From Psychroflexus lacisalsi (GTDB lineage: Bacteria; Bacteroidota; Bacteroidia; Flavobacteriales; Flavobacteriaceae), in assembly GCF_020164495.1 (NCBI RefSeq), contig NZ_JAIQYZ010000001.1, forward strand, positions 1,178,001-1,242,000: a stretch of DNA of 64,000 nucleotides. The letters are read 5' to 3'. Under the pieces are notes generated by a model. It was not told the DNA's origin. It made no database searches and saw nothing but the letters and a program-made list of their open reading frames with translations. The translations under genes were made by a program, and so were the position numbers. Below, piece by piece: positions 23,843 through 26,050 of this stretch (the stretch's first letter is position 1; the number at the start of each line of letters is the position of its first letter).

Positions 23843-25309
23843 TTGAATTGGTTTAAAACGTACTTCTATAAAGTCCTGGGGCCTTTGGTTTTCATTGCAT
23901 TCCAATTCATGGATCCCCTCAATGATCTTTCTCAAAGTGGTTTTAATCTTCTGGCAATAACACTTTGGATGGCGATATGGTGGGTGACAGAAACTGTTCC
24001 TATTTCAGTTACAGCATTATTGCCCATTGTTCTTTTTCCTTTACTTGAGGTGCTTTCTATCGGAGAAACGACTCAGCAATACGGGCACAAATATGTATTC
24101 CTTTACATTGGTGGTTTTATTTTGGCAATTGGGATTGAACGCTGGAATCTTCATAAAAGAATTGCATTACAAATTATCAAATTAATTGGTTCTAAAGCCT
24201 CGTACCTTATTTTAGGATTCATGGTCGCTACCGCTTTTTTGTCGATGTGGATTTCCAATACAGCTACCACGGTGATGATGTTGCCCATCGCTATTGCTAT
24301 TGCCAACCAAATTCAGAATCATAATCTTGAAGATTCTATTCAAAGTTCCTTGTTTTCTAAAGCACTGATGCTTTCCATTGCTTATAGCGCCTCTATCGGC
24401 GGTATTGCTACACTCATTGGGACGCCTCCAAATCTTGTGTTTGCTGGAGTTTTGGAAAACACCTATGGTATTAAAATCAGTTTTTTTGAATGGATGAAAT
24501 TCGGGCTTCCTGTTTCTTTAGTCTTATTATTTATATGTTGGAAGTATTTGACTTCATTCGCATTTAAATTAAATCGAGTGAAATTTAGTGGTGGAAAAAA
24601 AGAAGTGCAAACCATGCTATCAAAACTTGGAAAGCTTTCGTATGAAGAAAAAAGGGTGGGGATAGTTTTTATGATTGCTGCTTTAGGCTGGATATTTAGA
24701 GGTTTACTGGAAACGATTTTAGTTGGAATCGATGACACAATCATCGCTATAAGCGCGGCAATTCTTTTGTTTTTGATTCCGACAAAAAAAGGAAACCGAA
24801 AGCTATTAACCTGGGACGAAGCCGTAAAAATTCCATGGGGAATTATTATTCTGTTTGGTGGAGGAATGGCTTTAGCCAAAGGTTTTGTAGAAACGGGTTT
24901 GGCCAATTGGATTGCTAGTCAGGTCAATCTTTTTCAAGGGGTTAGCATTATTGTCTTAGTGCTGATTATAACCGCGCTGGTCAATTTCCTGACCGAGGTA
25001 ACTTCCAATCTAGCCACCACCGCCATGCTTTTGCCTATTTTGGCTCCCGTTGCCTTAAGCTTTGATGTACATCCGTATATATTGATGATAGCCGTGACAC
25101 TCTCTGCTTCCTGTGCCTTTATGTTGCCTGTGGCTACGCCGCCAAATGCAATTGTATTTGGTGCTAACTATTTAAAAGTATCAGACATGGCCACAAAAGG
25201 TTTTCTTCTGAATGTGATCTCCATTTCAATTATTGCCTTGGTGGTTTATTTCTATATGCCTTATGTTTTTCAACTGGAAAGCCTGGTATTTCCTGATGTT
25301 TTGAAATAA
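23843..25309 (+). CDS. DASS family sodium/dicarboxylate (anion) symporter
   Basis: SLC13/DASS membrane transporter with about 11-12 hydrophobic segments. The two sodium-site motifs are visible: SMWISNTATTVMMLPIA and TEVTSNLATTAMLLPIL. The IWWVTETVPISVTALLPIVLFPL block after the first helix is typical. The only start in front of the first helix is the TTG at 23843, preceded two codons earlier by an in-frame TGA; starting at the next ATG (Met23) would remove the conserved Gly-Pro of helix one, so TTG is chosen. 488 aa is normal. Substrate (succinate, sulfate or similar) is not decidable. Confidence 0.9.
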   Translation: MNWFKTYFYKVLGPLVFIAFQFMDPLNDLSQSGFNLLAITLWMAIWWVTETVPISVTALLPIVLFPLLEVLSIGETTQQYGHKYVFLYIGGFILAIGIERWNLHKRIALQIIKLIGSKASYLILGFMVATAFLSMWISNTATTVMMLPIAIAIANQIQNHNLEDSIQSSLFSKALMLSIAYSASIGGIATLIGTPPNLVFAGVLENTYGIKISFFEWMKFGLPVSLVLLFICWKYLTSFAFKLNRVKFSGGKKEVQTMLSKLGKLSYEEKRVGIVFMIAALGWIFRGLLETILVGIDDTIIAISAAILLFLIPTKKGNRKLLTWDEAVKIPWGIIILFGGGMALAKGFVETGLANWIASQVNLFQGVSIIVLVLIITALVNFLTEVTSNLATTAMLLPILAPVALSFDVHPYILMIAVTLSASCAFMLPVATPPNAIVFGANYLKVSDMATKGFLLNVISISIIALVVYFYMPYVFQLESLVFPDVLK

Positions 25310-25323
25310 ATTGTCATTTTTGA

Positions 25324-25427
25324 ATTCGATTTAAGAGTCGAATCTTTAAGTATTCGATATATAGATCGAATTATCTAGTATTCGATTTAAGAGTCGAATT
25401 TGTAATAATTTGATACATTAGTCGAAT
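25324..25427. promoter_or_regulatory. phased array of four palindromic sites upstream of satD
   Basis: Four 20-bp palindromes of the form ATTCGA-N8-TCGAAT start at 25324, 25352, 25380 and 25408, exactly 28 bp apart. Units 1 and 3 are identical including the spacer (TTTAAGAG); unit 2 has spacer TATATAGA; unit 4 has one mismatch (ATTTGA) and spacer TACATTAG. The last site ends 23 bp before the satD ATG. No other copy of the full palindrome was noticed in the window. The arrangement is that of a multi-site operator; SatD, whose C-terminus is a helix-turn-helix, is the obvious candidate ligand. Confidence 0.85.
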
Positions 25428-25450
25428 ATTTGATATATTTAAGCTGATTT

Positions 25451-26050
25451 ATGGTAGCAATTATAACAGGGGATATCGTCAATTCCAGAGAAGGAGAAGC
25501 GGCTGAATGGTTAGAAACATTAAAAGAAGCCTTAAACGCTTACGGAAAAAATGCTATAGACTGGGAGATCTTCAGGGGAGATAGTTTTCAATTGAAAACA
25601 AAGGTCAACAAGGCACTGGAGGCCTCATTGTTTATAAAGGCCTGCATCAAAGAACACAGTGCTATTGATGTGAGAATGGCAATTGGGATCGGTCAGGTCA
25701 ATGGGTCTAATGGAAAGATCATAGAGGATCAGGGCGAAGCCTTTTACAGGTCGGGGCATCGTTTTGAAAACCTGAAATCGACTCGTCTTGCTGTAGAGAC
25801 AGGTGATCAGGAGCTGGATTCAAGTCTGAATTTAATGCTAGACCTTGGTTTATTAACCTTTGATAACTGGACTAAAATTGATGCTTTAACTTTGAAAACT
25901 GCTTTAAAATTTCCTGAATATACCCAGAAGCAAATTGCCAAAACACTTGATAAATCTCCGAGCACGGTAAGTTTTACGCTCCAAAAAACCGGCTTTAAAG
26001 AAATTTTAAAATTACTAGAATTCTATAACCATTCAGTTTCAAAATTATGA
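25451..26050 (+). CDS. SatD family protein with C-terminal helix-turn-helix
   Basis: Resembles the SatD family, found with DUF3307 in many Bacteroidetes. N-terminal alpha/beta domain contains ITGDIVNSREGE (residues 5-16) and FRGDSFQLK (41-49), giving a cyclase/polymerase-palm look with conserved Asp residues; residues about 157-182 (TQKQIAKTLDKSPSTVSFTL) are a clear helix-turn-helix. 199 aa. Its stop overlaps the DUF3307 start (ATGA). Four phased palindromes sit just upstream, making autoregulation likely. Molecular function is not established; 'transcriptional regulator with an enzymatic or sensory N-domain' is inference. Confidence 0.8.
   Translation: MVAIITGDIVNSREGEAAEWLETLKEALNAYGKNAIDWEIFRGDSFQLKTKVNKALEASLFIKACIKEHSAIDVRMAIGIGQVNGSNGKIIEDQGEAFYRSGHRFENLKSTRLAVETGDQELDSSLNLMLDLGLLTFDNWTKIDALTLKTALKFPEYTQKQIAKTLDKSPSTVSFTLQKTGFKEILKLLEFYNHSVSKL

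Follow-up and report, generated by a model that had tools for sequence, protein, structure and literature searches.

The region upstream of the satD-DUF3307 gene pair of Psychroflexus lacisalsi carries an array of four evenly spaced palindromes, found in a stretch of 64,000 nucleotides analyzed in this work (hereafter, the window). Judged from sequence comparison, what relatives conserve is the 28/29-bp register together with the span of the sites, and not the letters ATTCGA of the window's own palindromes, and such an array is a hallmark of satD genes. SatD very probably binds it, because the letters of the half-site follow SatD residues 172 and 175 and the code formed by these two residues predicts the operators of further loci. 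We consider it likely, with good confidence, that SatD acts as a dedicated autorepressor of the satD-DUF3307 operon.

The palindrome array in the window

The array follows a sodium:sulfate symporter-type gene, whose stop codon is at 25309, and precedes the satD start codon (ATG at 25451) (Table 1). The original prediction had described four palindromes with an exact 28-bp period in front of satD-DUF3307, units 1 and 3 being identical over 20 bp, unit 4 alone carrying a mismatch and the last palindrome ending 23 bp before the satD ATG. The coordinates and the start-to-start distances of the four ATTCGA-N8-TCGAAT sites (28, 28 and 28) bear out this period, and the identity, the mismatch and the gap were all recovered from the sequence: units 1 to 3 are exact and unit 4 has a single mismatch (ATTTGA). 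Across the whole array, a 6-bp half-site begins every 14 bp, with alternating orientation.

Three exact ATTCGA-N8-TCGAAT sites occur in the window vs none in 200 dinucleotide shuffles of it; at up to two mismatches the window gives 5 matches vs 4.2 expected, which alone is not significant. All three exact forward sites of the organism's own 3.04-Mb genome are those of this array. Allowing up to one mismatch, five forward sites were found in that genome, four of them in the array, and a reversed control pattern gave 18, which marks the motif as uncommon in the rest of this genome.

Table 1. Predicted operator elements, genes and key codons at the satD-DUF3307 locus (positions are those of the window).
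Feature	Position	Strand	Sequence or remark
Operator palindrome 1 (predicted)	25324..25343	.	ATTCGATTTAAGAGTCGAAT
Operator palindrome 2 (predicted)	25352..25371	.	ATTCGATATATAGATCGAAT
Operator palindrome 3 (predicted)	25380..25399	.	same sequence as palindrome 1
Operator palindrome 4 (predicted)	25408..25427	.	ATTTGATACATTAGTCGAAT; C-to-T in left arm (ATTTGA)
Weak candidate -7 element	25434..25441	+	TATATTTA; putative
satD, 199 aa, N-terminal palm-like domain and C-terminal HTH	25451..26050	+	Pfam SatD
Codon of invariant D8, strand 1 of palm-like domain	25472..25474	+	candidate metal ligand, putative role
Codons of invariant G43-D44, strand 2/3 hairpin (RGDSF)	25577..25582	+	candidate metal ligand, putative role
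Recognition helix, residues 170-179	25958..25987	+	residues 172 and 175 co-vary with half-site core
DUF3307 membrane protein, 237 aa	26047..26760	+	putative regulated partner; 4-nt overlap with satD

Conservation of the 28/29-bp register

In the 300 nt upstream of satD at 97 Flavobacteriaceae loci, we searched for sets of three palindromic units with a common half-site, at every period from 21 to 40 bp; unit counts begin at three, since the scan requires three. Dropped from the 97-locus scans were L001-L005, L036 and L037, which were either duplicates or no satD genes, L051, whose gene is partial, and L097, which tblastn had missed and which was recovered later. Of the 20 periods, 28 scored best in 78 loci and 29 in a further 15, the other 4 loci having a different best period, and the mean scan score reached 53.2 at 28 bp and 35.4 at 29 bp vs 29.9-32.2 at the other periods. 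A period of 28 or 29 was best in 93/97 true upstream regions vs 7/97 and 4/95 in two other stretches of these loci and 14/97 in shuffled sequences, and a score of at least 48 was obtained in 86/97 vs 0/97, 0/95 and 0/97, respectively. A cruder scan of the 97 loci using the dyad only returned 28 as the sole best period in 48 loci, 29 in 12 and 21 in 6, its mean at 28 being 15.85 vs 12.3 in dinucleotide shuffles. An array of this kind had been regarded as unusual for a two-gene unit; with 28/29 best in 93 of the 97 family loci, it is instead the rule.

The register was also examined in 50 further loci from the phylum (four of them from the same family, and many from closely related genomes), using a variable arm distance and periods of 22-37 and without a shuffle control. 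A period of 28 or 29 was best in 43 of these loci, 37 of which scored at least 50; another period was best in the other 7, and several far loci score weakly. On the tree, the register switches between 28 and 29 bp only four times. The retention of the register over such a distance suggests, at the level of sequence, a conserved protein assembly on the DNA.

Arrays were also present on plasmids and viral contigs. The satD pair of a Vibrio lentus plasmid has a clear 28-bp array (score 74, shuffles at most 42), that of a Segatella copri plasmid a weaker one with the same period (score 55, shuffles at most 41), and the viral contigs L172, L173 and L174 carry 29-bp arrays with scores of 69-83 (shuffles at most 45). 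The Enterobacter kobei locus has two units, the array is weak at two Salinivibrio loci, and the scan was not convincing at two Pseudoalteromonas loci and in Pseudomonas fragi; a clear three-unit array was thus seen in one of the seven named Gammaproteobacteria loci.

Some side observations concern these loci. SatD-DUF3307 pairs lie on Segatella and Gammaproteobacteria plasmids at L171, L176 and L178-L181, where SatD is annotated as a hypothetical protein, and genes for a transposase, an integrase or a recombination-promoting nuclease are found near the pairs of L171, L176, L178 and L181. L053 is a natural spacing variant, of use for a comparison of SatD contacts: its register is 29 bp, where the similar SatD proteins of L054-L064 go with 28 bp. 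At L106 (G051 C65), satD is split over two frames and the array scores poorly, pointing to possible decay or an assembly error.

Operator letters among close relatives

SatD was found in 85 of 149 genomes of the family and in 15 of 27 of the genus. Five relatives (L038, L039, L041, L042 and L043) carry an ATTCGA array of three to four units and share with the window the C-to-T change in the last unit, which reads ATTTGA in the first four and ATTTGG in L043; the upstream regions of L039 and L042 are identical to those in records of Psychroflexus montanilacus and P. tropicus. Modified Psychroflexus arrays occur at L040 and L044: their half-sites are ATTCGTT and ATCCGAT and their last unit is ATTTTTA...TCAAAAT, which sets them apart from the ATTCGA arrays of close relatives. 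The six remaining full-length loci of the genus (L045-L050) have other half-sites. At least two exact ATTCGA sites were present in 6/27 genus genomes, and in every one of these two or more lie in front of satD. G151 has an additional exact site elsewhere, G158, G160 and G169 have a single exact site each, and among the 12 genus genomes that lack a SatD match none exceeds one site.

ATTCGA was also considered as a family-wide motif and rejected, as more distant satD genes mostly lack these letters and yet have the array. The expectation that the same palindrome and spacing would precede other satD-DUF3307 units therefore stood for the spacing and failed for the letters outside the close Psychroflexus relatives. 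Taking a lack of palindrome conservation as refutation, as had been proposed earlier, would have been misleading on this comparative evidence, in which the letters change while the architecture is conserved.

Co-variation of the half-site with the recognition helix

The half-sites vary by lineage; most begin with TAT and continue with a core that differs, as in TATCTGC, TATCGGC, TATTAGC, TATTACC, TATTCCT and TATCACA, among others. In a set of 93 loci, from which L065, L076, L092 and L106 had been dropped (score below 41 at 28/29), the summed mutual information with the half-site ranked SatD residues 175, 172 and 176 first to third. A tree of 108 loci was then built from SatD residues 1-150, that is, free of the HTH, to remove the effect of shared ancestry; it included 15 of 21 added loci (L097 and L140-L159). 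On this tree, 33 branches carry a change at residue 175, and on 24 of them the operator core changes as well, vs 7.6 expected (p=2e-11), the next best of the 198 columns reaching 2e-4. Changes in the operator core were inferred on 49 of the 214 branches, some of which may be noise in the consensus calls. With a tree of full-length proteins, the top column for the core was again residue 175 (1.7e-7), and for position 5 of the half-site it was residue 172 (1.4e-10); column 169, at the start of the helix, ranked above 175 for position 4, and position 6 went best with 163 or 178.

The correspondence can be read residue by residue. All 24 loci with E175 have C at half-site position 4 and, within them, position 5 is T with N172 (10/10) and G with T172 (5/5) or S172 (8/9). 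F175, the type of the window, goes with CGA in 8/8 loci, all of them from the window's genus, and Q175 with TAG, AAG or TAT in 31/33; K175 is looser, with TCC in 7 of 14 loci.

The code of residues 172 and 175, trained on the 93 loci, was applied to 22 further loci, after 9 of 31 candidates had been dropped (five with another best period, two with a low score and two without the TAT register). Among these 22 loci, of which L160 and L161 have nearly the same sequence and L146, L150 and L153 belong to the window's family, the code predicted 51 of 66 core bases vs 30 for the nearest neighbour by N-terminal domain and 32 for the majority call; full triplets were predicted in 12, 2 and 0 loci, respectively. 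The far loci L110-L139, which have other half-site letters or lengths, were left out of the code. In leave-one-out predictions, the code outperformed the nearest neighbour when relatives were restricted to less than 60% identity (66% vs 45%) and to less than 45% (55% vs 38%), and gave no gain with relatives below 36% N-domain identity (38% vs 34%, majority 39%).

Eight genomes have two satD matches. Both copies could be read in six of them, two of these six being near relatives, and the half-sites of the two copies differ in 6/6, which suggests, so far as operator letters can tell, insulation between paralogues within one genome. In five genomes picked for a TATCGG-type SatD, 9 of the 10 exact sites lie in the satD array; G154 has none. 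A single exact TATCGG-N8-CCGATA site away from satD, at G251 C1:418038-418057, could be a second target or due to chance. Taken together, a period conserved over 97 loci and half-site letters that vary in step with residues 172 and 175 support the original prediction of an operator array read by the HTH of SatD.

The SatD and DUF3307 proteins

The window proteins score above the curated cut-offs of their Pfam families, with 32.9 bits for SatD (PF16264, cut-off 29) and 77.2 bits for DUF3307 (PF11750, cut-off 23). The SatD family is named after streptococcal satD ("secretion and acid tolerance"). The C-terminal helix-turn-helix foreseen for SatD is present in its structure model as helices 159-166 and 170-179, in blocks at pLDDT 97-98, and Pfam HTH profiles match the protein weakly (E of at least 0.01).

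Residues ~1-120 of the modeled SatD moderately resemble the palms of class III nucleotidyl cyclases, GGDEF proteins and Cas10/Cmr2, with which they may share the order of strands and helices and the fold. D8 and D44 are invariant in 50 SatD sequences, and we take D8 and G43-D44 to occupy the positions where the cyclase, GGDEF and Cas10 families bear metal ligands; the RGDSF hairpin motif reads RGDEF in some relatives. With this modeled likeness, a nucleotide signal for SatD is plausible. A sequence search of the PDB with SatD gave three chance-level matches (E 0.44-0.7), and the best matches in NCBIfam (E 0.0084), PADLOC (0.01) and PHROGs (0.038) are weak; no SatD match was found in phage records. 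Among the PADLOC defence models, SatD has four weak matches (E 0.01-0.03) and DUF3307 none.

DUF3307 matches phrog_2470, a moron-class membrane protein of phages, at 1e-10; its model has a pLDDT of 91.4, and its best fold match in the PDB an E of 0.65. H12, D16, H41, H70, D74, D93 and H97 are strongly conserved in its first half, and G162, G166, E169, R170, K192, R196, E210 and Y211 are invariant in the second. A DUF3307 homologue lies downstream of satD in 96/97 loci of the family and in 50/50 further loci with at least 500 nt downstream (five also of the family), and the 4-nt overlap is the commonest arrangement among the 153 loci, out of 159, whose partner could be read.

Mode of regulation and alternative explanations

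The -7 box of Bacteroidota promoters has the consensus TAnnTTTG. Such a box lies within 120 nt of the start codon in 51 of the 93 loci and was absent there in 42. In 32 of the 51, the last box starts within the operator, at phase +8 from a palindrome centre and on the terminal TA of the arm; in 28 of the 93 loci a gap of 0-10 nt separates the last detected unit from the start codon. This placement of the -7 box at an operator arm and of the last unit near the start codon favours repression by occlusion. As the window has no perfect TAnnTTTG box between 25301 and 25451, the sign of its regulation is taken from its relatives.

The same observations bear on the possibility that SatD acts on the array as an activator or as a dual regulator switched by a ligand. 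Arrays of three to six units reach upstream of the likely promoter, and regulators with a sensor domain often switch with their ligand; however, -7 boxes that sit at the operator arm in one phase in 32/51 loci, and last units within 0-10 nt of the start in 28/93, point to occlusion, and we give this possibility only a small chance. It is considerably less probable that the array arose by tandem duplication of a promoter element, its spacing being inherited without functional constraint. Units do often contain a -7-like element, and some arrays (L019, L173) look recently duplicated, but the 28/29 spacing is held across the phylum while arms and linkers diverge, and the arms retain their two-fold symmetry with lineage-specific letters. 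Even less credit is due to an unlinked regulator that binds the array, with SatD merely a regulated gene: although the sequence of one locus cannot by itself tell which protein binds, the half-site letters track residues 172 and 175 of SatD from lineage to lineage, whether or not the tree includes the HTH, and where a genome has a second satD copy, that copy is preceded by an array of its own that differs from the first. Finally, a replication iteron, recombination site or CRISPR-like repeat, to which regular short repeats of ~28 bp might point, is most improbable for symmetric palindromes, usually of three to four detected units, that lie directly before satD in 93/97 loci and co-vary with its HTH.

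Autorepression by SatD is thus the reading developed here. Strong titration is less likely than autorepression as the purpose of the array, because the sites lie on the operon's own upstream region and exact sites are mostly at satD in the genomes searched. Cooperative binding and DNA wrapping, also raised in the original prediction, are what we infer from the fixed spacing. One SatD dimer would bind each palindrome and adjacent dimers would contact each other; we propose that it is this contact that holds the spacing while the sequence drifts. With half-sites every 14 bp, as in the window, the HTHs would wind around the DNA helix. The occupied array would shut out RNA polymerase and keep satD-DUF3307 expression low, until a ligand, probably a nucleotide, acting on the N-terminal cyclase-like domain altered the assembly and released the expression of DUF3307.

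A broader reading is tempting but, in our estimate, rather unlikely to hold as a whole: satD-DUF3307 might be a widespread mobile two-gene signaling module, in which a palm protein that binds or makes a nucleotide is also the cooperative, DNA-winding repressor of a membrane effector, with operators re-coded in each lineage so that co-resident copies, as in phage immunity, do not cross-regulate. If this were true, DUF3307 would do harm when left unchecked, and that would account for streptococcal satD being reported as essential where tested and yet missing from many genomes. In Streptococcus pyogenes, satD is reported to be essential across emm1, emm28 and emm49 strains and yet to occur in 178 of 249 genomes (PMC11323703).

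Relation to known systems

A second report annotates a SatD family member (PMC10326533), and in the open-licence literature on SatD and DUF3307 we found no paper that presents SatD as a DNA-binding regulator of its own gene. Two kinds of known systems offer a comparison. Phage immunity repressors of the lambda CI type bind as dimers to several palindromes over their own promoter, and the recognition helix sets the differences in specificity between relatives. SatD is like them in its predicted dimers on multiple palindromes over its own promoter and in a specificity that differs through the recognition helix. In contrast to lambda CI, the satD array serves one operon, usually through three or four detected units set in a single 28/29-bp register, and SatD bears a cyclase-palm-like domain in place of a self-cleaving domain. 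Regulators of the CdaR/PucR type join a degenerate GGDEF-like palm domain to an HTH. SatD likewise combines a palm-like domain with an HTH, but retains two invariant aspartates. At an rmsd near 16 A, its structural match to 3onq, which we take to be the CdaR/PucR-type protein BAD_0249, does not count as evidence of kinship.

Two protein families of no known function can thereby be treated as one regulatory unit open to testing, consisting of a likely repressor, its operator and the membrane protein under regulation. In addition, residues 172 and 175 against half-site positions 4-6 make up a natural recognition-helix code on a constant scaffold, a useful system for work on joint changes in a repressor and its operator.
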